NCBI GenBank assembly: GCA_011391115.1
Contig: JAABRC010000033.1
Location: 1 to 9,944 of the forward strand
Direction: 5' to 3'
DNA length: 9,944 bases
Source: Candidatus Egaibacter danicus
Lineage (GTDB): Bacteria > Pseudomonadota > Gammaproteobacteria > Burkholderiales > Burkholderiaceae
Under the pieces are notes generated by a model, which had not been told where the DNA came from, made no database searches, and saw nothing but the letters and a program-made list of their open reading frames with translations. The position numbers and the translations under genes were made by a program. Positions 1 to 9,571 of the stretch are shown here, one piece after another. The stretch's first letter is position 1, and every line of letters begins with the position of its first letter.

Positions 1-699
1 GAAAACAATCAGCGCAGAATTGCCTTGCTCGAAGAGTCAGTGCGGCTGTTGTATCGCGAGTGGTTCGTAAGCTTTCGTTTTCCCGGTTGTCAAAGTCAAA
101 AAGACGGGACCAACCTACCCAAAGGTTGGTCTCTTGGAAATGTTGGTGGTCTGACATCGCTTGTGAGCCGTGGCATCACTCCGCACTACGACGAGGCAGC
201 CAGCGGCCTTGTTATTAATCAGAAGTGCATTCGTGGAGGTCGTCTGACCTTGGCTGCAGCGCGCAGGCAATCCAAAGAAGTGAAGTCTGATCGGAATTTG
301 CAGATTGGTGATGTGTTGATCAATTCAACTGGAGCGGGTACGTTGGGTCGCGTCGCACAGGTTCGAACAGCGATACCCGACTGCACAGTGGACACACATG
401 TGACTATCGTTCGACCAAACGATCTCAATAGCGCCGCATTCCTTGGCGTCGCATTGATTGAGCAGGAGTCGGTGCTAGCGACGATGGGGGTCGGTGCGAC
501 AAATCAATTAGAACTTCCTCGCGCCGATATTGCGTCTGTACCACTAGTTGTTCCACCCGAACAATTTCGCGTTGAATTTCATGAGCTTGTCTGGCCACTT
601 TTTATGCAGGCAGAGACATTGGCAAAATCCAACGAGGGCTTGGTTGAGGCGCGCGACGCGTTACTGCCAAAAATAATGTCGGGCGAGCTCGCCGTCTGA
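1..699 (+). CDS. hsdS: Type I restriction-modification specificity subunit HsdS, 3' part (5' end outside window)
   Basis: The reading frame is open from base 1 and ends at TGA 697-699, so this is the C-terminal ~232 residues of a longer protein. HsdS reads the bipartite DNA target for the HsdM2-HsdS methylase and the HsdR-containing nuclease. It begins in the central conserved helix (QRRIALLEESVRLLYREWF), which separates the two target-recognition domains. A second recognition domain follows, over about visible residues 35-180, ending in the typical GATNQLELPRADIASVPLVVPP-type segment (shortened: GATNQLELPRADI). The C-terminal spacer helix closes with EARDALLPKIMSGEL, a hallmark HsdS ending. 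A TTG at 25 could be misread as a start, but the conserved helix already runs upstream of it. hsdR starts 20 bp downstream, so the two are an operon. The recognition-domain part looks more AT-rich and less codon-biased than hsdR, as expected for an exchangeable specificity domain. Confidence 0.93.
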   Translation, partial: ENNQRRIALLEESVRLLYREWFVSFRFPGCQSQKDGTNLPKGWSLGNVGGLTSLVSRGITPHYDEAASGLVINQKCIRGGRLTLAAARRQSKEVKSDRNLQIGDVLINSTGAGTLGRVAQVRTAIPDCTVDTHVTIVRPNDLNSAAFLGVALIEQESVLATMGVGATNQLELPRADIASVPLVVPPEQFRVEFHELVWPLFMQAETLAKSNEGLVEARDALLPKIMSGELAV

Positions 700-703
700 C
701 CCA

Positions 704-712
704 AAGGGAGAG
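704..712 (+). promoter_or_regulatory. Ribosome binding site of hsdR
   Basis: The purine-rich stretch AAGGGAGAG lies 7 bases before ATG 720 inside the short hsdS-hsdR gap. It supports the chosen hsdR start and separate translation initiation within one operon. Confidence 0.6.
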
Positions 713-719
713 AACAACA

Positions 720-3700
720 ATGGCCAGCGCGGAATACTCAGAAGACAACAACATCCAGGAGCCCGCTGCCAAGCTTTTCGAGGACAACCTGGACTGGCGC
801 TCGGTCTATGCCTTCAATGCCGAGACCTTTGGCCCGACCTCGATGTTGGGGCGCAAAGATGCGACCGAGGTGGTGCTGGTGCGAGAGCTGGATGCAGCAC
901 TGGTCAAACTGAACCCCAAGCTGGCGGCAACGCCTGGCGGGCGCCTCAAGCTGACCCTGGCGCGCGATCTGCTTCTGGATGCGGATCCGACCAAGACCTT
1001 GCTGCAGCACAACGAGGCTAAGTGGAAACTGATGCGCGACGGCATCACGCTGAAATCTCCGGGTGGCGTTGCGGCGGATGACGTGCATGTCACGGTGATT
1101 GACTTTGCGAACCCGACCGTGAACGATTTTCTGGTGGTGCGGGAACTGTGGGTCAAGAGTGGCCCGTTCCCGCGCCGTTGTGATCTGGTGGGTTTTGTCA
1201 ACGGGCTGCCCTTGGTCTTTATCGAACTCAAACGCCACGACAAGGGCCTGAAGTCCGCGTTCGACGACAACTACAGTGACTACAAGGACACGATTCCAAG
1301 GCTGTTTCACTACAACGCGCTGGTGATTGTGTCTAACGGCCTGGATGCGCGCTTCGGCTCCATCACCAGCAGCTGGGATCACTTCTACCGCTGGAAGCGC
1401 TTGAACGAGGGTGACCCGGACCCGGCGCCCAAGCACGACGAGCCGCCGCTTTTGCCGTTGCTGCCCATCTTGTTGCGCGGTATGTGCAACAAGGCAGCGC
1501 TGCTGGACACCGTTGAAAACTTCATCCTGTTTGACAGCAGCGAGGAGGTGACGGTGAAGGTAGTGGCCCGCAACCACCAGTACATTGGCGTGAACAAGGC
1601 CATTACCAAGTTGCAGTCCGGCGACGCGGAAGTGCTGGCCGGCAAGCTGGGCGTGTTCTGGCATACGCAGGGCAGTGGCAAGAGTTATTCCATGGTGTTC
1701 TTCTGCCAGAAGGTGCACCGCAGGGTGTCAAGCGCCTACACCTTTGTGCTGCTGACCGACCGCAAGGAGCTGGACGATCAGATTTACGCCACCTTTGTGG
1801 GTTGTGGCGTCTCCACCAACAAGGGCGACAAGGCCACGGGCGCCGAGGGGCTGGAGCGCTTGCTGCGAGATCAGAACCGGCGCTATGTGTTCAGCCTGAT
1901 TCACAAGTTCCGCAAGCGCGTAACCGAGCCCTGGACTGAGCGCCGTGACATCATCGTGCTGTCGGACGAAGCGCACCGCACGCAATACGGCCGGCTGGCA
2001 ACGCAGATGCGAATGGCCCTGCGGCATGCGGCATTCCTGGCGTTTACGGGCACGCCTCTGATTGACAGCAAGGAGCGGCACGAGACTGAAAAGGTCTTTG
2101 GATCTTATGTCTCCGTCTACGACTTTCAGCGCGCGGTGGCGGATGGCGCCACCTTGCCGCTGTACTACGAAAACCGGGGCGAGAAGCTTCGCCTGGTGGA
2201 CCCGGACCTGAACAAGCGGATTGAAGCGCGCATTGATGCGGCGCGGGCAGATGGTGAGTTGACGGAAGAGCAGGAAGAAAAGCTGTATCGGGAGCTGGCC
2301 CGCGAGTATCCGGTGTTGACGTCGGACACGCATCTCAACGATGTGGCCACCGATTTCGTGGAGCATTACCACCAGCGTTGGCGCTTGATGGAAGCCCCCA
2401 CCAAGCAGGGTGAGCCCGCCAAGTACGGCGGCAACACCAAGGCAATGTTGGTCTGCATCGACAAGGTTACCTGCGCGAAGATGGCAACACGGATCAAAAT
2501 CCTTTGGCTGAACAAGCAGCTGGAGCTGCAAGGCAAACTTCATAAGGAAGAAGCGGTGTATGCCAAAGCCGGCAAGCCTGAGCCGCCGTTCGTGATTCGA
2601 CTGCGGGCACAGATAGGCTGGATGGCCGACACGCTGATTCACCCGGTGTTTAGCCCGGAGCAGAACGAGGTGAAGGACTTCAAGGCAGAAGGCATTGATG
2701 TGACCCCTTTGCGTGAGGTGATGGCCAACGGCATTGGTGGCAAGAAGCTCGATGAGTGCTTCAAAGACGGCAAGCACCCGTTCCGGGTGGCCGTGGTGTG
2801 CGCCATGTGGCTGACGGGCTTTGATGTGAAGTCCCTGGCCACCCTGTATCTGGACAAGCCCATGAAGGGGCACACCCTGATGCAAGCCATTGCCCGTGTG
2901 AATCGGGTGGCAGCCAACAAAAAGAACGGCCTCATCATTGACTACAACGGCATGCTCAAAAGCCTGCGCAAAGCGCTGGCCACCTATGGGCAGGGTGACA
3001 AAGGTTTGCCGGTTGACCCACTGTTTGATGAAGTCCAGGCGCTGGCCGAATACGCGGCCTCCATCGGCAAGGTGCAGGCTCAGCTCGCGACACTGGGTTA
3101 CCACTTGGATGCCTTGGTGCGCGCCGAAGAGGGCGAAGAAACCTGGGTTGAACTGCTACATGCACAGAATGCGGTGAGCACTTCGCCAGAGAACAAGAAG
3201 ACGTTCCAAGTCCTGGCCGAAGACGTATTCGACCGGTTTCGCGGCCTGTTTCCTAACCCTGGCGTGTTCAAGTACGAGCCGCAGGAAAACGCCATTACTG
3301 CGCTCTACAACTTGCTGCAGAAGCCCAAACCCAAAGTAGACATCACGGCGATCATGCAAGAGATTCGCGGTGTGATTGACACGTCGTTGGACGTCGCGCA
3401 AAAGGGTGTGACAAAGCAGCCATCCAAACAGTATGACCTGTCTGGCATTGACTTTGAGCGCCTGCATGCCGAGTTTGCCAAGTCACCCTACAAGGAGACG
3501 GCGGTGCTGACCTTGCAGGAGCGAATTGAAGCGCGCCTGGCTTTGATGCTGAAGCTGAACCCTGGCCGTATAGACCTCTACAAGCGTTACCAGGAAATCA
3601 TTACGGAGTACAACCGCGACAAGGACGACGCCGAGATTCAGCGCGTCTTTGATGACCTCATCAAGCTGCACGATTCCCTGGACCAGGAAGAGCGGCGCTA

Positions 3701-4019
3701 CATACGCGAGGGCTTTGATAGCGAGAAAGAATTGGCGGTGTATGACCTGCTGTCAAAGGACAAGGCCGACATCACCAAGGGTGACATCGACAAGTTGAAG
3801 AAAGTGGCGCAAGCACTCATGGCAACGGTGGAGCAGCGCCGGCATGAGATGGGGGACCTGCGCGACCGCGCCTCTGTTCAGGCGCAGATGAAGGTCGCCA
3901 TCATCGACCGGCTGCTGGAGGGGATGCCCGATGGCTATTCCAGCGAGGATATCGAGGCACGGGTTGAGGTCATTTTTCAATACGTGCAGGAGCAGATGCT
4001 TTCGGGCTCGATGCATTGA
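720..4019 (+). CDS. hsdR: Type I restriction endonuclease motor/nuclease subunit HsdR
   Basis: This 1099-residue protein is the ATP-driven translocase and nuclease of the type I complex; with HsdM/HsdS it reels in and cuts DNA that lacks host methylation. The N-terminal nuclease domain has the PD-(D/E)xK signature D155...E169-L-K171, with the same spacing as the EcoR124I HsdR site. A Q-type motif (RNHQYIGVNKAI, about 284-295) precedes the helicase core: Walker A GSGKS 318-322, DEAH 416-419, TGT 443-445, TGFD 699-702, and motif VI QAIARVNR 722-729. The rest is the HsdR helical and C-terminal region that docks on the methylase. No key residue is missing and the frame is intact, so it should be active. 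ATG 720 is preceded by a GGGAG-type ribosome site (about 705-711). It follows hsdS by 20 bp and presumably shares its promoter upstream of the window. Confidence 0.97.
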   Translation: MASAEYSEDNNIQEPAAKLFEDNLDWRSVYAFNAETFGPTSMLGRKDATEVVLVRELDAALVKLNPKLAATPGGRLKLTLARDLLLDADPTKTLLQHNEAKWKLMRDGITLKSPGGVAADDVHVTVIDFANPTVNDFLVVRELWVKSGPFPRRCDLVGFVNGLPLVFIELKRHDKGLKSAFDDNYSDYKDTIPRLFHYNALVIVSNGLDARFGSITSSWDHFYRWKRLNEGDPDPAPKHDEPPLLPLLPILLRGMCNKAALLDTVENFILFDSSEEVTVKVVARNHQYIGVNKAITKLQSGDAEVLAGKLGVFWHTQGSGKSYSMVFFCQKVHRRVSSAYTFVLLTDRKELDDQIYATFVGCGVSTNKGDKATGAEGLERLLRDQNRRYVFSLIHKFRKRVTEPWTERRDIIVLSDEAHRTQYGRLATQMRMALRHAAFLAFTGTPLIDSKERHETEKVFGSYVSVYDFQRAVADGATLPLYYENRGEKLRLVDPDLNKRIEARIDAARADGELTEEQEEKLYRELAREYPVLTSDTHLNDVATDFVEHYHQRWRLMEAPTKQGEPAKYGGNTKAMLVCIDKVTCAKMATRIKILWLNKQLELQGKLHKEEAVYAKAGKPEPPFVIRLRAQIGWMADTLIHPVFSPEQNEVKDFKAEGIDVTPLREVMANGIGGKKLDECFKDGKHPFRVAVVCAMWLTGFDVKSLATLYLDKPMKGHTLMQAIARVNRVAANKKNGLIIDYNGMLKSLRKALATYGQGDKGLPVDPLFDEVQALAEYAASIGKVQAQLATLGYHLDALVRAEEGEETWVELLHAQNAVSTSPENKKTFQVLAEDVFDRFRGLFPNPGVFKYEPQENAITALYNLLQKPKPKVDITAIMQEIRGVIDTSLDVAQKGVTKQPSKQYDLSGIDFERLHAEFAKSPYKETAVLTLQERIEARLALMLKLNPGRIDLYKRYQEIITEYNRDKDDAEIQRVFDDLIKLHDSLDQEERRYIREGFDSEKELAVYDLLSKDKADITKGDIDKLKKVAQALMATVEQRRHEMGDLRDRASVQAQMKVAIIDRLLEGMPDGYSSEDIEARVEVIFQYVQEQMLSGSMH

Positions 4020-4040
4020 GTTTCTTAATAGGGAGTCTTC

Positions 4041-4115
4041 ATGAAGCCTCGAATCACGGTGGATAGATGTAAACAATGGGCTGGCGTCACCTGCTCCCAA
4101 ACGTCCAGCCGGTAG
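4041..4115 (+). CDS. Possible 24-aa small ORF downstream of hsdR
   Basis: ATG 4041 is preceded by a good GGGAG ribosome site (4031-4035, 5-base spacer) only 21 bp after the hsdR stop. The frame reads MKPRITVDRCKQWAG... and stops at TAG 4113-4115. The peptide has no recognisable domain. Its strong initiation signal and operon-like position suggest either a real small protein or the surviving front end of a gene that once followed hsdR. A chance ORF of this length is also quite possible, so confidence is low. Confidence 0.2.
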   Translation: MKPRITVDRCKQWAGVTCSQTSSR

Positions 4116-4143
4116 GCTCAATGAATTAATGGGATGAAATTTC

Positions 4144-4449
4144 TCAGTGTTGTGCTCTATACATTGCCGACCAAACATCCATATAAGCCGAGTGGCGTTT
4201 CTTTTCCTTCACCGTATTTTTGAAATTCGAATAATTTAAAGCCATGACCTGGTCATTCAACGCTTTGGCCACTAATTCGCGTGGCACCTTGGCCCGGTAT
4301 TTGTAATCCGTGCCTTTGTTCACTTCGACCTTGACATTAGGGAACAATTTTTCGATGTCGCCCTTCATACGCGCCCGCACCGTCAACAGGTCGGTATCCC
4401 CCGGCTTTTGGACAATGCTGATAAAACTTTTTGATGTGAACAGCCACAT
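4144..4449 (-). CDS. Conserved-looking 101-aa protein of unknown function
   Basis: From ATG 4449 the protein begins MWLFTSKSFISIVQKPGDTD and is 101 residues long. An ATG 18 codons upstream (4503) would add residues that look unlike a protein start. AGAAAG upstream of 4449 is a plausible weak ribosome site. From memory, small proteins beginning MWLFT..F.SIV and containing a DLLTVRAR-like strand and a DYKYR.KVPR-like segment (here residues ~67-77) recur as hypothetical proteins in proteobacteria; I know no assigned function. It is soluble-looking, basic (many Lys/Arg), with no signal peptide or membrane segment. It is divergent from the WYL regulator (163 bp apart), so it may be that regulator's target, and it converges with hsdR. 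Its base composition is AT-richer than hsdR. Confidence 0.8.
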   Translation of the reverse strand: MWLFTSKSFISIVQKPGDTDLLTVRARMKGDIEKLFPNVKVEVNKGTDYKYRAKVPRELVAKALNDQVMALNYSNFKNTVKEKKRHSAYMDVWSAMYRAQH

Positions 4450-4495
4450 GGTTTTTCTTTCTAAATTTGATGATGTGGACAGCATCGCACTACCC

Positions 4496-4514
4496 GGGCT
4501 CAAAAGTCGAGCCC
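4496..4514. promoter_or_regulatory. Inverted repeat GGGCTC-N7-GAGCCC, candidate operator of the WYL regulator
   Basis: Perfect 6-bp arms (4496-4501 and 4509-4514) separated by 7 bases lie in the region between the divergent 101-aa gene and the WYL regulator. The left arm extends to GGGCTCAAA, and the same nonamer returns at 4579-4587 just before the WYL gene. Bacterial regulators often bind such arms as dimers. Assigning it to the WYL protein is inference from position only. Confidence 0.4.
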
Positions 4515-4612: not shown

Positions 4613-5623
4613 GTGAGTCGAACAGAGCGTTTCTATCAAATTGACCAGCTGCTGGCGATCAGAAAGGTCATGTCGCGGCAAGATTTGCTCAGCGTGCTGG
4701 AGGTGTCCTGGGCCACGTTGAAGCGTGATTTGGCCTACATGCGCGATCGGCTCAATGCGCCCATCGAGTTTGACCGGGATGCAGGTGGTTATCGGTTTTG
4801 CACACCCTCTGTCGGCCCCAAGTACGAATTGCCGGGTTTGTGGTTCAACGCGGACGAGACCTACGCCTTGCTCACAACCCACCAACTGCTGTGTGATTTG
4901 GAGCCGGGCCTGCTTGCGCCGCATGTGGCTCCTTTGCTGTCGCGCCTGGAGGCCATCCTTGGGCAGGAAGAACTAAATTTCTCACAAATCGCCAACCGCA
5001 TCCGCTTGGGTCGTATCGGCAAGCGCCGCAAGAACCCGGCCCATTTCAGTGTGGTGTCTCGGGCTTTGCTGGAACGCAAACAACTGCAAGTACGCCACTA
5101 CTCACGCGAGCATGACAGCCATAGTGACCGAACCTTGTCGCCACAGCGCATGATCTTTTACCGGAACAACTGGTATTTGGAAGCCTGGTGCCAAGCCCGA
5201 AAGGCGTTGCGGCGCTTTTCTGTCGATGCGCTGGAGTCAGTGGAGCTGTTGACTGCCAAAGCCAAGGATGTTTCTGGCAAGCAGTTGGATGCGGCCTTCG
5301 CCACGGCGTATGGCATTTACGGCGGTGCCCGGGTCAAAAATGCCCACCTACGGTTTTCTGTGGCGGCCGCACGCTGGGTCGCAGATGAGGAATGGCATCC
5401 AGATCAAGTTGGCTCCCTGGATGCCGACGGCCGGTACGTGCTGGAGGTTCCATTTGCTGAACCGACCGAACTGCTGATGGACATCCTGCGCCACGGGCAT
5501 CATGTTGAAGTGCTGGGGCCACCGGAACTGCGGCGTGCCGTCGTGTCAGCCATCAAACAGATGCAGGCGCTGTACCCAGACCAAGCGACGGTGCGAGCTG
5601 AAACAACAAGGCCGCCACGGTGA
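4613..5623 (+). CDS. WYL-domain transcriptional regulator (HTH-WYL-WCX architecture)
   Basis: A 336-residue predicted DNA-binding regulator. Residues ~5-60 form a DeoR-like winged helix-turn-helix (ERFYQIDQLLAIRKVMSRQDLL, then a recognition helix around 32-46). Residues ~140-205 are a WYL domain, with the eponymous W187-Y188-L189 in NNWYLEAWC and the usual SPQRMIFYR strand before it. Residues ~240-320 match the C-terminal WCX extension. WYL domains sense nucleotide-type ligands, and regulators of this layout (BrxR/CapW) repress phage-defence operons. GTG 4613 is the likely start, preceded by AGGAGA (4601-4606, 6-base spacer). It is divergent from the 101-aa gene and follows the type I system, so it may control either or both. 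It ends 7 bp from the convergent Nudix gene. WYL membership is firm; the regulated target is inferred. Confidence 0.93.
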   Translation: MSRTERFYQIDQLLAIRKVMSRQDLLSVLEVSWATLKRDLAYMRDRLNAPIEFDRDAGGYRFCTPSVGPKYELPGLWFNADETYALLTTHQLLCDLEPGLLAPHVAPLLSRLEAILGQEELNFSQIANRIRLGRIGKRRKNPAHFSVVSRALLERKQLQVRHYSREHDSHSDRTLSPQRMIFYRNNWYLEAWCQARKALRRFSVDALESVELLTAKAKDVSGKQLDAAFATAYGIYGGARVKNAHLRFSVAAARWVADEEWHPDQVGSLDADGRYVLEVPFAEPTELLMDILRHGHHVEVLGPPELRRAVVSAIKQMQALYPDQATVRAETTRPPR

Positions 5624-5630
5624 TGGGTGG

Positions 5631-6602
5631 TTAGCGGTCCAACAATTCCACACCCCAGATCCAGAAGCAGACCGAGGGGCCTTCCTGAAGATGGAAGTGG
5701 TCACCATATTCGAATCGCTCCGAGCCCGGACCTTCTGCGTAAAGGGTGCCCTCGTCAATCGAGACGATGTCGAGCTTCTGATTGAGCAACTTCCAGCCAA
5801 GTGGTGTCAGGAGATCTCTGGGGACAGCCTCACACATGCCGCGGTTCAGCAGTAGCCGAGTCGGCCAACAACCGTATTGCCTGCGAAACCCAGCGATGGT
5901 CGCCAGAATGCGATGGACCGCAGCCAGCCCAGAGGTTGAACTCAAGATGTCTGATTCCGACAGTTGCGGCAGTGATCGCAACGTCTTAACGACGACTTCG
6001 TCATTGGCGTGAGAGGCAAACTGGGCCAATTGCGCCATCGGCACCAGATGCGTTGCTTGGCTTTCCCATTCCATGGCGGCCGGGTTGCCGCCCACCCTCA
6101 TGGCGAGGTAATAGCGAGTCACGCTGGTGGTCCGGATCGAATCGCACAAAAAGCCGTTTAACTCCACCTTCAAACCGGACTCTTCAAACACCTCCTTCAA
6201 GGCATTGGCGCGCAGACTCAAGCCCTCCTTTGGATCGAGTTTGCCTTTGGGAAAGGTGTGGGTGTAGCCACCGAAGCCATTGCTGGGTGAGACCACCCAG
6301 ACCCGCCCATCTGGCTCGATGACCACGGCACCGGAGGCAGGCGCTAGTCCAGCGGTGGTCTGCGTCGGTGGCTCGTCAAATGTTGAGGCTCCAGCCAGAC
6401 GCTCCCATCCGGCTGCATCGCGGGGTGCATCGGTCCAGGAGGCAATCGCTAGATGGTTGACCTGCTCTGGCATGGCTCCATCCGGGATCACGGTGGCAAT
6501 CTGGTCCGCCTGGCTCCAGGAGGAAGCGTTCGTGGGCTGGCTGGGGTGATCCAAGGCAACAGGCTGGGCTTTGTCGTTGTGGCGCGGGTGATACGTCTTC
6601 AT
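5631..6602 (-). CDS. Nudix hydrolase with an additional C-terminal domain
   Basis: A 323-residue protein. The Nudix box runs from PKG (118-120) to KEVFEESGL (136-144); the metal-binding glutamates E137, E140 and E141 are present. The loop is unusual: relative to Gx5Ex7REUxEExGU there are nine, not seven, residues between E126 and the KE pair, and Lys replaces the usual Arg. Nudix enzymes hydrolyse nucleoside diphosphates linked to another group (ADP-ribose, NAD, dNTPs); the substrate cannot be told here. Residues ~52-117 lead into the fold. Residues ~219-323 form a further domain with GFRRQYGCWPTRLLL and LTPLGWKLL segments, not part of a normal Nudix fold. ATG 6602 has a weak AGAGAAAG site; ATG 6476 (residue 43) is an alternative because residues 1-50 look low-complexity and unconserved. 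It converges with the WYL gene, 7 bp away. Confidence 0.88.
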   Translation of the reverse strand: MKTYHPRHNDKAQPVALDHPSQPTNASSWSQADQIATVIPDGAMPEQVNHLAIASWTDAPRDAAGWERLAGASTFDEPPTQTTAGLAPASGAVVIEPDGRVWVVSPSNGFGGYTHTFPKGKLDPKEGLSLRANALKEVFEESGLKVELNGFLCDSIRTTSVTRYYLAMRVGGNPAAMEWESQATHLVPMAQLAQFASHANDEVVVKTLRSLPQLSESDILSSTSGLAAVHRILATIAGFRRQYGCWPTRLLLNRGMCEAVPRDLLTPLGWKLLNQKLDIVSIDEGTLYAEGPGSERFEYGDHFHLQEGPSVCFWIWGVELLDR

Positions 6603-6754
6603 GCTCGGATTCTTTCTCTGTGATCAACGTCCACCGCCATGGCGGCATCGCTGGGTGTTCTGTTTCACCATTGACCTAGATTGATCTTGGTGGTCCCTAT
6701 GTTCCCTTTTCACGAGCTCAAATAGTGAGCCTGAAATTCCGCTGGGGTATCTCC
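6603..6754. other. Intergenic gap between mrr and the Nudix gene
   Basis: The gap holds no plausible gene. Besides the palindrome at 6634-6645 it contains a small stem GCTCA-N5-TGAGC (6716-6730) 25 bp past the mrr stop. No T-run follows on the minus strand, so this is at best a weak or factor-dependent terminator. The Nudix promoter should lie here if the gene is not read through from mrr; no clear -35/-10 pair was found. Confidence 0.4.
6634..6645. promoter_or_regulatory. 12-bp perfect palindrome upstream of the Nudix gene
   Basis: CCGCCATGGCGG is a perfect palindrome 32 bp upstream of the Nudix ATG (6602), in the 152-bp gap after mrr. It could be an operator, but GC-rich 12-bp palindromes also arise by chance. 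Confidence 0.2.
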
Positions 6755-7693
6755 TTACATCAGCTTGAAGTGCTCTGCGGATCCACCAGTGGGGTACAAA
6801 TACTCGGCAAAGAATCCCTCGTTTACCTGGTAGTCACCAGCGTTGCTACTCACTGACTGGACGCCGATGGCATTTTTCTGCATCAGTTTGATGAGTCGCT
6901 CGAGGCCGATCAATTCAATAGGTGTTGCCCCGGGGCGGCAAGCCTCCATTTCCGCGCTTGGGGTGAAAGATGACGTCGTAAAAATCAAACCATATTTGGC
7001 ACGCCCTTCAACTGCCCCCCGAAAATCCCTGACCTTTGACGAAGATACTTTGTTGTCGTCAAACCTTTTGCACTGCCATGCCACTGGCGCTTTAATCAAA
7101 GACAGTGCATCAAACGCAAGCATTCCCTCACCGTCCACGCCACCGTCACCAGATTGCCCGGTCACCTTGGTTGCCAACAGTCCGTTTTTAGTCATGATGA
7201 AAGCACACAGACGCTCAAAACCTTTATCGGGCATCTTGGTCAATAGGTTTTTGAGATTGCTCTCCCAGGACTCTGTGCCGATCAACTCGCTTTGACGGGC
7301 ATCTTCAGAAGGTGCATCCTGAGCATCCGAATTGCCAGCTGTACCTTTTTGCGCACTGGCTTTGTAAATTGCTTTGACGCTGGCCGCGTCAAGAACCATG
7401 TCCCAGCCTTTGGGGGTGAGTTTCCAGTTGCCATAGCCCGCAGTTGCCATGGGCTCCAGTATGTCGGCATTTACGAGGTACATCCGTGCCCATTGAATAT
7501 CGTTTGAGAACTTTTGCGCCCCTGACGCAAGGATGGTGTCTGGCACGGCCTTGTGCTCTGCCATCATGCTTTCGGCGATCCATTGTTTTACCGCTGCTGC
7601 CTTGGCGACACCATTCAATGACCGAAGCGCCTCAACGATGGGTTGGATGTAGCTCGTTGAATCCGGCAATTTTCCCTGACTGTTGTTGTTCAT
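6755..7693 (-). CDS. mrr: Mrr-type (type IV) restriction endonuclease
   Basis: A 312-aa protein from ATG 7693 (320 aa if GTG 7717 is used; ATG has a GGTGAAG site at close spacing, GTG has none, and the longer form runs toward the operator). Numbering here is from GTG. The N-terminal winged helix (~20-108, Mrr_N-like, ending GNWKLTPKGWDMVLD) should bind DNA. After a charged linker comes the Mrr catalytic domain: GFERLCAFI (166-174), GQSGDGGVDGEG (187-198), then VAWQCKR with Q215 and K217, the D...QxK version of the PD-(D/E)xK site. The GLERLIKLMQKNAIGVQSVS end parallels E. coli Mrr (304 aa) in order and length. Mrr enzymes cleave methylated DNA, so this should restrict modified phage or foreign DNA. 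It is divergent from the XRE gene, with two operators between. A -10-like TAGAAT (7741-7736, minus strand) overlaps operator 1, suggesting repression by the XRE protein. Confidence 0.9.
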   Translation of the reverse strand: MNNNSQGKLPDSTSYIQPIVEALRSLNGVAKAAAVKQWIAESMMAEHKAVPDTILASGAQKFSNDIQWARMYLVNADILEPMATAGYGNWKLTPKGWDMVLDAASVKAIYKASAQKGTAGNSDAQDAPSEDARQSELIGTESWESNLKNLLTKMPDKGFERLCAFIMTKNGLLATKVTGQSGDGGVDGEGMLAFDALSLIKAPVAWQCKRFDDNKVSSSKVRDFRGAVEGRAKYGLIFTTSSFTPSAEMEACRPGATPIELIGLERLIKLMQKNAIGVQSVSSNAGDYQVNEGFFAEYLYPTGGSAEHFKLM

Positions 7694-7738
7694 TACTTCA
7701 CCATGATTGCGCTGCACAAGAATGGCAGCACATTCATT

Positions 7739-7753
7739 CTACGAATATCGTAG
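7739..7753. promoter_or_regulatory. Operator 1: CTACGA-ATA-TCGTAG inverted repeat
   Basis: A perfect inverted repeat with 6-bp arms and a 3-bp centre lies between mrr and the XRE gene. It sits inside a 14-bp sequence (7737-7750) repeated exactly at 7770-7783. It overlaps TAGAAT on the minus strand, a good -10 match for mrr (36 bases from there to ATG 7693 allows a short leader). Position, symmetry and repetition make it the likely binding site of the adjacent XRE repressor. Confidence 0.7.
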
Positions 7754-7771
7754 AGAAATTAATGTGGCGTT

Positions 7772-7786
7772 CTACGAATATCGATG
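7772..7786. promoter_or_regulatory. Operator 2: CTACGA-ATA-TCGATG, imperfect copy of operator 1
   Basis: The left arm and centre match operator 1 exactly; the right arm keeps TCG then diverges (ATG for TAG). Centres of the two sites (7746 and 7779) are 33 bp apart, about three helical turns, so two dimers could sit on the same DNA face. It ends just before the proposed XRE start at 7788, fitting autoregulation, with a weaker site nearest its own gene. Confidence 0.65.
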
Positions 7787-7787
7787 G

Positions 7788-8120
7788 ATGCCTAGGCAAT
7801 CCACACCCTCAACACTCTTTGGACGACGCCTCCGCGACGCTCGAAAAAGAGTGGGCATCCCTCAAGATAAGCTGGGTGTCGCCATTGGCATGGACGAGGG
7901 TTCCAGCAGTGCCCGGATCAGTCGATATGAGACTGGAACGCATGAGCCACCGTTTGCGACCGCAGCAAACCTTGCGGTCGCACTCAACGTGCCGGCGGCC
8001 TATTTTTACTGTGACGACGATCTGTTGGCTGAATTGCTGATTCTTTATGCGGGGCTAACAAAATCCCAAAAAAATCAGGTCATGGCGCTGGCTTTGGAAT
8101 TGAGCGGCTCGACCACGTAA
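7788..8120 (+). CDS. XRE-family HTH repressor, candidate controller of mrr
   Basis: A 110-residue protein from ATG 7788. Residues ~10-65 are a Cro/CI-type helix-turn-helix (LFGRRLRDARKRVGIPQDKLG, recognition segment SARISRYETG 41-50, then EPP...ANLAVALNV). A short acidic and hydrophobic tail follows (YFYCDDDLLAELLILYAG), ending in a helix of the kind used for dimerisation. The frame stays open to 7707, but the extra 27 residues translate the operators (FYEYR appears twice because the DNA repeat is in frame: 33 bp), so the downstream ATG is preferred. No clear ribosome site precedes 7788; translation may be weak or leaderless. It is divergent from mrr and its last 46 bp overlap the convergent ADP-ribosylglycohydrolase gene. 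In function it resembles the controller proteins of restriction systems; this is inferred from context. Confidence 0.88.
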   Translation: MPRQSTPSTLFGRRLRDARKRVGIPQDKLGVAIGMDEGSSSARISRYETGTHEPPFATAANLAVALNVPAAYFYCDDDLLAELLILYAGLTKSQKNQVMALALELSGSTT

Positions 8121-9031
8121 CTTTGCCTGCCTGCCAAGGCATCGGCCATATCCCGAATTTCCGTCATCATGGTCAGTTTGGCCAGCCACTCGGGCGTTAT
8201 GGAGCCTTCACCATAAAACGCTCCGGCAATCTGGCCCGCCTGGGCCGCCGTCGTGTCGGCATCATCACCCAGGTTCGCCGCCATGAGCACACAGTCACGG
8301 AAACTGCTGGTCTGGGCAAAGCACCACAGGGTGGCTTCCAGGCTGTCCACCACATAGCCTGTGCCCCTGATGGCTTGCCTGTCCTTGGTGAGGTAGCTTC
8401 CTCGTCCAATGAGATCAACCTTGGTTGGCAGCTTGCCAGACAGCACTGGCGGTGCCAGAACCTGGTCTTTGCTTTGACTCTGCAATGCACGCACCAGAAG
8501 TTCGCCAAAAAGACGACTTGCCCCTAGGCATTCTGGAGCTTGATGGGTTGTCCTGGCTTGTTCCTCGCTGTACCTGACGGCTAGTTCCGGTTGGTCGGCA
8601 TACCGAATGGGCACGGGTGCCAGTCGCATGAGACAGCCGTTGCCGGCGCTGTTGGGGTCGGTCGAGCCTGCCAGTGGGTTACCGTTGCGCTGGAAGCGCT
8701 GCAGCGCCCCACGAGTGGCGATGCCGATGTCAAAGCAGCGTCCGGTGCTGCTCATGTAACCCTCATTGGCCCAGCGGGTGTACCGCTGCATCTGATCATG
8801 CAGGTCAAAGCCGTTGTCGATCAGGCTGATCGCCAGACACAAGGCCATGCTGGTGTCATCGGTGAATTGGCCGGGTTCAAGCCCAAAAGGGCCGCCACCG
8901 ATCATGTCGGTCAATGGCTTGAATGAGCCACGAGGTTTGAACTCGACGGTGGTGCCAATGGCGTCGCCCACAGCCAGGCCAAGGAGGGCGCCTCGAGCGC
9001 GATGTTGGAAAGTGATTTCAGGGTTTGTCAT
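8075..9031 (-). CDS. ADP-ribosylglycohydrolase family protein (DraG/ARH fold)
   Basis: A 318-residue enzyme predicted to remove ADP-ribose from a modified protein, nucleic acid or small molecule, using two divalent metals. The family signature is complete: RARGALLGLAVGDAIGTTVEF at the N terminus (given here shortened as LLGLAVGDAIGTT, 17-28), FTDDTSMALCLA with T57-D58-D59-T60, SAGNGCLMR (128-136), and LGDDADTTAAQAG with D256, D257, D259 and T260 near the C terminus. Length is typical. ATG 9031 is chosen because homology-like sequence starts right there; the longer frame needs a TTG at 9067 and adds unlikely residues. No good ribosome site is visible. The 3' end overlaps the XRE gene by 46 bp, tail to tail. 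Together with the Nudix gene on the same strand it points to ADP-ribose chemistry; the substrate is unknown. It could act as immunity against an ADP-ribosylating toxin, as Tri1 does, or be general metabolism. Confidence 0.92.
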   Translation of the reverse strand: MTNPEITFQHRARGALLGLAVGDAIGTTVEFKPRGSFKPLTDMIGGGPFGLEPGQFTDDTSMALCLAISLIDNGFDLHDQMQRYTRWANEGYMSSTGRCFDIGIATRGALQRFQRNGNPLAGSTDPNSAGNGCLMRLAPVPIRYADQPELAVRYSEEQARTTHQAPECLGASRLFGELLVRALQSQSKDQVLAPPVLSGKLPTKVDLIGRGSYLTKDRQAIRGTGYVVDSLEATLWCFAQTSSFRDCVLMAANLGDDADTTAAQAGQIAGAFYGEGSITPEWLAKLTMMTEIRDMADALAGRQSYVVEPLNSKASAMT

Positions 9032-9571
9032 GGGGATCAGTATTGGAGAATTTTTGGCACAAGGCAAGCACTTCAGACCCTTACGTTGTTGACTAGCGTT
9101 GGAGCCGTTACTGAGGCTAAATGGAAGGACGCAGCGTTGGCGCCAACATCAAATGACGTGTTGCTCAAGGCCCGATCCATACGCTCGAACACAGATTACC
9201 AGCCAGGCAAACGGTGCGTTTACGTTGGCATGTTCGGGTTGGACCCGGTCGTTCGCTTTGCAAGCACAAGGCCGGAATTCAGGCCGGTATGGGCAGGAAT
9301 GTGGCCAGCGCTTGTTGCCCGAAATCTATAAGCTGTACAACCCACTCGCCTACGATGAAGCATGGAGTTTGAAAGTGGAATTAGGGATCGACTTGCGCGA
9401 GGGCGGGTTCATTGGGCTCTGGCAGGCTTGAGACTTGCGAGCCTTTGAAAGAGCTACTTTCAACCACGTCACACTGGTGACACGCGCTGTTGGTAAAAAC
9501 ACCGGGTTACCCCAGGCGATACACCGCCATCAACCCAGTCTCCTCGCAGCACTCAGAAAGCCCCCCTGTTT
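9032..9571. other. Gene-poor stretch with possible decayed coding sequence
   Basis: No intact gene is convincing here. In one plus frame about 9105-9331 reads protein-like (KWKDAALAPTSNDVLLKARS ... AGMWPALVARNL, then TAA). Just past it another plus frame reads YNPLAYDEAWSLKVELGI ... GLWQA to TGA 9429-9431. The switch near 9310 could be a frameshifted gene remnant, but I do not recognise a family and neither piece has a clear start. Also present are a 12-bp palindrome GTTGGCGCCAAC (9136-9147), and inverted repeats at 9445-9463 and 9468-9481 upstream of the lipoprotein gene. The promoter of the glycohydrolase (minus strand) and of the lipoprotein (plus) should both lie here; no clear consensus was found. 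Confidence 0.4.
9445..9463. promoter_or_regulatory. Inverted repeat TTGAAAG-N5-CTTTCAA upstream of the lipoprotein gene
   Basis: Perfect 7-bp arms with a 5-base centre lie about 110 bp upstream of ATG 9572 and just past TGA 9429-9431. A second inverted repeat, GTCAC-ACTG-GTGAC (9468-9481), follows 4 bp later. There is no T-run, so an operator is likelier than an intrinsic terminator, though neither role is proven. Confidence 0.3.

Follow-up and report, generated by a model that had tools for sequence, protein, structure and literature searches.

The best-known role of controller (C) proteins is to time type II restriction; members of the C.Csp231I class have seven helices, whereas other C proteins have two fewer. 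The operator of C.Csp231I, which together with C.EcoO109I represents the class corresponding to motif 8 of Sorokin, consists of two 15 bp sites (CTAAGN5CTTAG) with an 18 bp spacer; the two sites, OL and OR, are bound equally well, and the base contacts are made by Ser32, Gln37 and His43 (PMC4321490). C.Csp231I is leaderless, with OL activating and OR repressing; the -35 element lies within OR, and the REase gene follows downstream in the same direction (PMC4824078). BswR of Pseudomonas aeruginosa (PDB entry 4O8B) has been described outside restriction-modification (R-M), its target being the rsmZ promoter and its palindrome a different one (PMC3985676). The Xre protein of I-F3b CRISPR-associated transposons, RtbC, regulates transposition; the Shewanella representatives cluster with C.Csp231I (PMC12452197), and zygotic induction has been described for I-F3 elements (PMC11406308). 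A further likeness is offered by RptR, which is small and represses a defence island containing restriction genes; its target, however, is TAGCTA within a set of three direct repeats, and its association is with type I R-M (PMC12255303). Literature on C proteins together with Mrr or type IV enzymes, or with type III enzymes, yielded a single pertinent review (PMC12707154), in which C proteins are named in type II loci and in one type I locus; none is named there for type IV, which, with the literature covered in part, is no proof of absence.

The locus reported here lies in a window, the whole stretch of DNA that was analysed, of 9944 bases; in comparisons its own locus is called W. The regulator, of 110 residues, is encoded at 7788-8120 on the forward strand. 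It belongs to the protein family of C.Csp231I and C.EcoO109I, shares Ser32 and His43 with them and, in its predicted model, the seven-helix fold. Like the C.Csp231I gene, its gene is preceded by paired 15 bp palindromes (5 bp arms, N5) with some 18 bp between them. It differs from these proteins in that the half-site is CTACG rather than CTAAG and Gln37 is replaced by arginine, and in that its start codon abuts OR; the start of C.Csp231I lies further from OR (PMC4824078). The surroundings also differ: no type II R-M system was found in the window, and the nuclease gene is divergent and of the Mrr type, which is not the arrangement of a C-controlled type II system, where the C gene is joined by a collinear REase gene and a cognate methyltransferase.

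Predicted twin operators in the window

The initial annotation described a 14 bp sequence occurring twice, 33 bp apart, the first copy forming part of a perfect inverted repeat that overlaps a -10-like TAGAAT for mrr and the second part of an imperfect repeat that abuts the start of the XRE gene. These observations hold in full. The sequence TTCTACGAATATCG is found at 7737-7750 and 7770-7783 and is the sole direct-repeat family reported within 7500-8000. Part of the first copy lies in the perfect palindrome CTACGA-ATA-TCGTAG at 7739-7753, our predicted OL (CTACG-N5-CGTAG, with 7 bp arms if 7738-7754 is counted). The second palindrome, CTACGAATATCGATG at 7772-7786, is two bases off and is the predicted OR. 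The 18 bp spacer between them, 7754-7771, has the length published for C.Csp231I. On the minus strand, TAGAAT (7741-7736) overlaps the edge of OL, and the in-frame ATG of the regulator gene, at 7788, is separated from OR by one base, an ATG at 7784 being out of frame. When the whole window was searched with up to two mismatches only these two sites were found; dinucleotide-preserving shuffles of the window gave a mean of 0.09 sites and reached two in one of 200.

Comparison of W with locus L001 indicates that OR and OL stand above the surrounding noncoding DNA. The stretch from OR through the start codon (7770-7792) is identical at 22 of 23 positions and OL with the -10 element (7735-7760) at 23 of 26, against 26 of 41 in the mrr leader and five of nine in the middle of the spacer. 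The corresponding values for coding sequence are 50/63 for XRE and 37/43 for mrr, so the conservation of OL is not above that of the mrr coding start. The pattern TCTACGANNNNCGTAGAG has a single occurrence in each of genomes G001-G004, none of which contains its reversed control.

The regulator and the divergent nuclease

By sequence, the XRE protein is a C.Csp231I homolog with the same operator geometry. A phmmer search of the PDB aligned residues 13-98 with C.Csp231I (E = 1.4e-20), the homology extending over the HTH and C-terminal part, and a profile of five homologs retrieved C.Csp231I with E = 1e-31. BswR was the runner-up with that profile, and phage P22 C2 (about 5e-4) and C.BclI and C.AhdI (about 0.008) were far weaker. 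PADLOC assigns the regulator to Control_protein (4.1e-21). An AlphaFold2 model built from 22 sequences (mean pLDDT 94) folds into seven helices. Foldseek returned seven matches for it at E <= 0.001: BswR and six entries or chains of C.Csp231I. At the position of the SQE sigma-contact patch the window protein has PQD (residues 25-27). Because the half-site is CTACG and Gln37 has become arginine, we regard the regulator as a sister specificity within the same protein family and not as one with a motif-8 operator; the CTACG motif may already be present in the C-protein motif catalogue of Sorokin (2009). The gene is probably leaderless; the position of the ATG next to OR, with no Shine-Dalgarno sequence seen, is consistent with this. 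Phages gave no match at 1e-8; four plasmid records matched at 1e-15, and one viral contig.

The divergent gene, mrr, occupies 6755-7693 on the minus strand and encodes 312 residues, with a Shine-Dalgarno-like GGTGA at 7698-7702 ahead of its start at 7693. Mrr_N and Mrr_cat both score above their curated Pfam cut-offs (74.5 versus 21 bits and 33.8 versus 29.5 bits, respectively), making the product a candidate type IV (Mrr-type) endonuclease by its domains. No methyltransferase was detected among the six main open reading frames of the window scanned with Pfam.

We consider it probable that the repeats are the OL and OR of the controller protein encoded beside them, which would first activate and then repress its own leaderless gene and would repress mrr when OL is occupied. 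A dimer would fill the perfect OL first, centred about 42 bp upstream of the leaderless start, and from there activate the promoter of the regulator gene itself, where no -35 element is recognisable. At a higher protein level the weaker OR would be filled too, covering the -10 and start region and leading to self-repression. If transcription starts at 7788, the centres of OL and OR would lie at about -42 and -9. Because OL overlaps the -10 element of the divergent promoter, the same binding should also keep expression of mrr and of the NUDIX gene downstream of it low. On entry into a regulator-free cell mrr would be expressed first and damped later. Homology, predicted fold, operator geometry, conservation, covariation and the exchange of nuclease and regulator described below all support this reading; binding, activation, repression of mrr, the order of filling, leaderlessness and timing are inferred. 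That order is not a given of the C.Csp231I class, as the two sites of C.Csp231I itself are bound equally.

If this is correct, a controller switch also serves enzymes whose danger lies elsewhere than in missing self-methylation, and a controller wired to Mrr, with no partner methyltransferase, predicts that Mrr would surge upon entry and then be damped.

Operators across regulator homologs

Homologs were drawn from one scan of genome contigs (12 loci), an order sample (26 of 399 genomes, E <= 1e-12), a family sample (30 of 299 genomes, 1e-15) and the class of G003 (12 of 274 genomes, 1e-15). The samples overlap in part, and the pooled set comprises 80 distinct loci, the window included. Within about 170 bp upstream, 55 of the 80 have a twin site with a score of 18/20 or more, compared with one of 240 mononucleotide shuffles; at a score of at least 17 the counts are 60 of 80 and 19 of 240. 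OL matches CTACGN5CGTAG at all ten positions in every window-type row (15 of 16) but L060, which lacks an operator. OR does so in four of the 15 loci (L002, L020, L022 and L025) and is off consensus in the other 11, that of L021 still being a perfect palindrome. A perfect OL and a poorer OR would fit a strong OL and a weaker OR. Relatives found here in Photobacterium have CTAAG sites. Distant controller homologs with CTAAG twin sites are also seen in L008, L009, L010 and L011 (about 350-4285), after genes resembling, and presumably representing, Tn7-type tnsABC.

A match to mrr (E <= 1e-3) accompanies the operators in W and L001 only; 53 of the 55 clear-operator loci are without one in the stretch examined, which for most was about 1.5 kb or more on each side. 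Among the 399 order-sample genomes mrr is present in 13, and the regulator lies within about 1.5 kb of it in G001 only. As the twin sites are equally well kept at regulators without mrr, they are primarily the regulator's own operators.

The module in related genomes

In the window mrr is followed on the same strand by a gene for a NUDIX protein (5631-6602), and the regulator gene converges with an ADP-ribosylglycohydrolase gene (8075-9067, minus strand) that overlaps its 3' end; both are members of the shared module described here. The tail-to-tail overlap, 8075-8120, amounts to 46 bp and is similar in L134. Further out are a WYL/WCX regulator gene (4613-5623, forward strand), also present in L134 and L135 (87%), and a small gene without a family match (4144-4503, minus strand), also present in L134, L135 and L141; neither has a match anywhere on the L001 contig. 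Conversely, a cysteine-rich gene located between nuclease and NUDIX genes in L001, L134 and L135 has no match in the window, including 6603-6754. Next to the module, window positions 1-4019 hold a type I restriction system with a full HsdR (720-4019) and an open frame (1-699) resembling the end of HsdS.

A search of 89 genomes of the genus of G001 for the twin-operator pattern, made independently of any protein, found it in four genomes, each time just upstream of a C homolog, and found the reversed control in none. The initial annotation had looked to related XRE/Mrr pairs for a conserved repeat in the same place, and the repeat is indeed there in L001 and L134, which share the gene block of the window. 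L134 has mrr (77% identity), regulator (81%), NUDIX (85%), WYL (87%) and ADP-ribosylglycohydrolase (85%, cut by the contig end). Its mrr, cysteine-rich gene (no Pfam family) and NUDIX gene are spaced by about 15 bp (longest open reading frame) and then by a 4 bp overlap, and this tight spacing suggests a single operon running leftward from the operator. L135 retains the regulator (75%), NUDIX (69%), WYL (87%) and a part of the glycohydrolase gene (83%); its nuclease slot, however, holds a 303-residue HrgA-family protein in place of mrr. We call HrgA a nuclease because P146-D147 and E180-x-K182 are invariant in 34 aligned sequences and because five of 120 listed relatives are named HrgA in their sources; Foldseek gave no match at E <= 0.001, with FokI and AF2093 leading at about 0.007. 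In G1014 (L133), the last of the four genomes, the regulator (58%) and operators are present, and the 7.5 kb examined contained no match to mrr or NUDIX.

The genome of L135, G1027, contains a second copy of the module, L141, in which mrr (51%), the glycohydrolase (82%), residues 1-210 of NUDIX and both the small and the cysteine-rich gene are retained. Its controller slot is occupied by an unrelated XRE gene (3675-4037; HTH_31, HTH_3) divergent to mrr. A perfect palindrome, ATTGGCGCAATACGCCAAT, lies at 3594-3612, and an imperfect copy, first spotted by eye, follows 23 bp on with 10 of 12 arm letters, a match reached by four of 2000 shuffles of the remaining intergenic region. This joint replacement of regulator and palindromes, again perfect then imperfect, gives the strongest indication that the nuclease is controlled from the junction.

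Taken together, L134, L135 and L141 point to a small module that includes the NUDIX and ADP-ribosylglycohydrolase genes and in which nuclease and regulator are exchangeable. We tentatively raise the possibility that this is an undescribed regulated type IV-like module comprising a nuclease (Mrr or HrgA), the cysteine-rich protein, NUDIX, an autoregulated XRE regulator (C.Csp231I-like or other) with paired operators and ADP-ribosylglycohydrolase, with WYL and the small gene in some copies; in it nuclease and regulator would have been swapped independently while the divergent operator logic was kept. The C.Csp231I-like family would also read its half-site through a simple code of three residues, Ser32/Gln37/His43. 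Exchange of both partners at one junction marks that junction as a selected unit. No empty site, with NUDIX beside ADP-ribosylglycohydrolase and lacking nuclease and regulator, was found. Glycohydrolase loci elsewhere (six in the family, four in the genus) have no other module gene in flanks of up to about 1.5 kb, nor does a NUDIX match in G965 (43%, one stop) have one beside it.

Among 21 window-type operator loci with surroundings listed, the divergent gene is mrr in three (W, L001 and L134), HrgA in one (L135) and, by PADLOC, a type III mod gene in three (L088, L089 and L091); Pfam found no defence family in the neighbours at L003, L005, L092 and L094, four of the remaining 14. The mod genes, at 4323-6056 in L088, 1-517 in L089 and 4305-6008 in L091, are divergent to a CTACG twin operator and controller, and res genes accompany them in L088 and L091. 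In L105 (1085-6208) a CTACG-class controller stands beside the BREX genes brxL and pglZ in convergent orientation.

The 53 mrr-less loci count against the proposed mechanism and would be expected if the operators served regulator feedback only, mrr having come to lie next to them by island shuffling with a weak or distant promoter left untouched; an mrr promoter without a recognisable -35 element fits this too. We nevertheless think it rather unlikely. The order nuclease-operator-regulator is kept in L001 and L134 with mrr and in L135 with HrgA, in L141 the gene divergent to mrr at this position encodes an unrelated XRE and is accompanied by palindromes of its own, type III mod genes diverge from operators of this kind in three loci, and W, L001, L134 and L135 all retain TAGAAT. 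Our proposal that OL controls mrr draws on position, on the swaps of nuclease (L135) and regulator (L141) at this site and on the retention of the -10 element.

The predicted divergent promoter

The region 7650-7850 contains no consensus promoter, which also weighs against the proposed mechanism, as do the single mrr with a neighbouring regulator in the order sample and the collinear REase gene and more distant start of C.Csp231I. TAGAAT is present in 11 of the 15 window-type loci, and a TTG lies 17 bp (18 in L021) upstream of TAGAAT in 12 of them, being absent in W, L001 and L025. The TTG is also absent in L133, L134 and L135 and present in L126, L127 and L128. At the divergent -35 place W, L001, L134 and L135 match TTGACA at no more than three of six positions, without TTG. 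The divergent promoter under OL may thus be an old feature that was weakened where the NUDIX module became attached. The annotation's broader proposal, a switch for a type IV enzyme resembling those of type II controllers, survives as regards the likeness to controllers (a C.Csp231I homolog with the same geometry); control of mrr is putative, and the -35 element of its supposed promoter is poor.

Promoters of mrr or HrgA without a recognisable -35 element, as predicted in these four loci, resemble activator-dependent ones, and the protein might instead activate mrr; it could do so from OR, say, much as classical C proteins turn on REase genes. This seems improbable to us, as OL, the better match to the consensus, would be centred near -17 of the mrr promoter; because it covers the spacer and the -10 element, its occupation should block RNA polymerase there.

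Residue-operator covariation

Ser32, Gln37 and His43 of C.Csp231I correspond, with an offset of nine, to residues 41, 46 and 52 of the window protein. At scores of at least 19/20, residue 46 and the half-site letter pair without exception in 43 loci, as Arg-C in 22 and Gln-A in 21. At scores of at least 17, S-R-H accompanies CTACG in 22 of 23 loci, S-Q-H accompanies CTAAG in 23 of 25 and R-R-H accompanies TNAC(G/A) in 11 of 11. These counts cover 60 of the 80 loci; the other 20 score below 17, one of them having too little upstream DNA. The exceptions are one R-T (GAATT, L060), two Q-C (GCCCC and ATGCC) and one G-A (L040); the R-T and Q-C cases are taken as chance palindromes because 19 of 240 shuffles reach 17. 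For a phylogenetic test, three of the 80 rows were set aside because of a stop or an absent residue; the tree of the remaining 77 gave two operator changes and four residue changes, with one independent pair on supported branches and two on all branches; these agree with the pairing, with significance out of reach. The covariation carries limited weight, as the loci are related and the tree has just two operator changes, but it amounts to a testable recognition code for the controller class. It is hardly credible that the repeats match by chance or belong to some unrelated factor, their small size being all that speaks for it, when two sites arise so rarely in window shuffles, the pattern recurs upstream of C homologs in four of 89 genomes with none for the reversed control, and the operator letter tracks a base-contact residue.

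Four regulators have arginine at the position of His43. One of them, L071, has no CTACC palindrome; by eye, the other three (L039, L044 and L045) have a CTACC...GGTAG palindrome in single copy.
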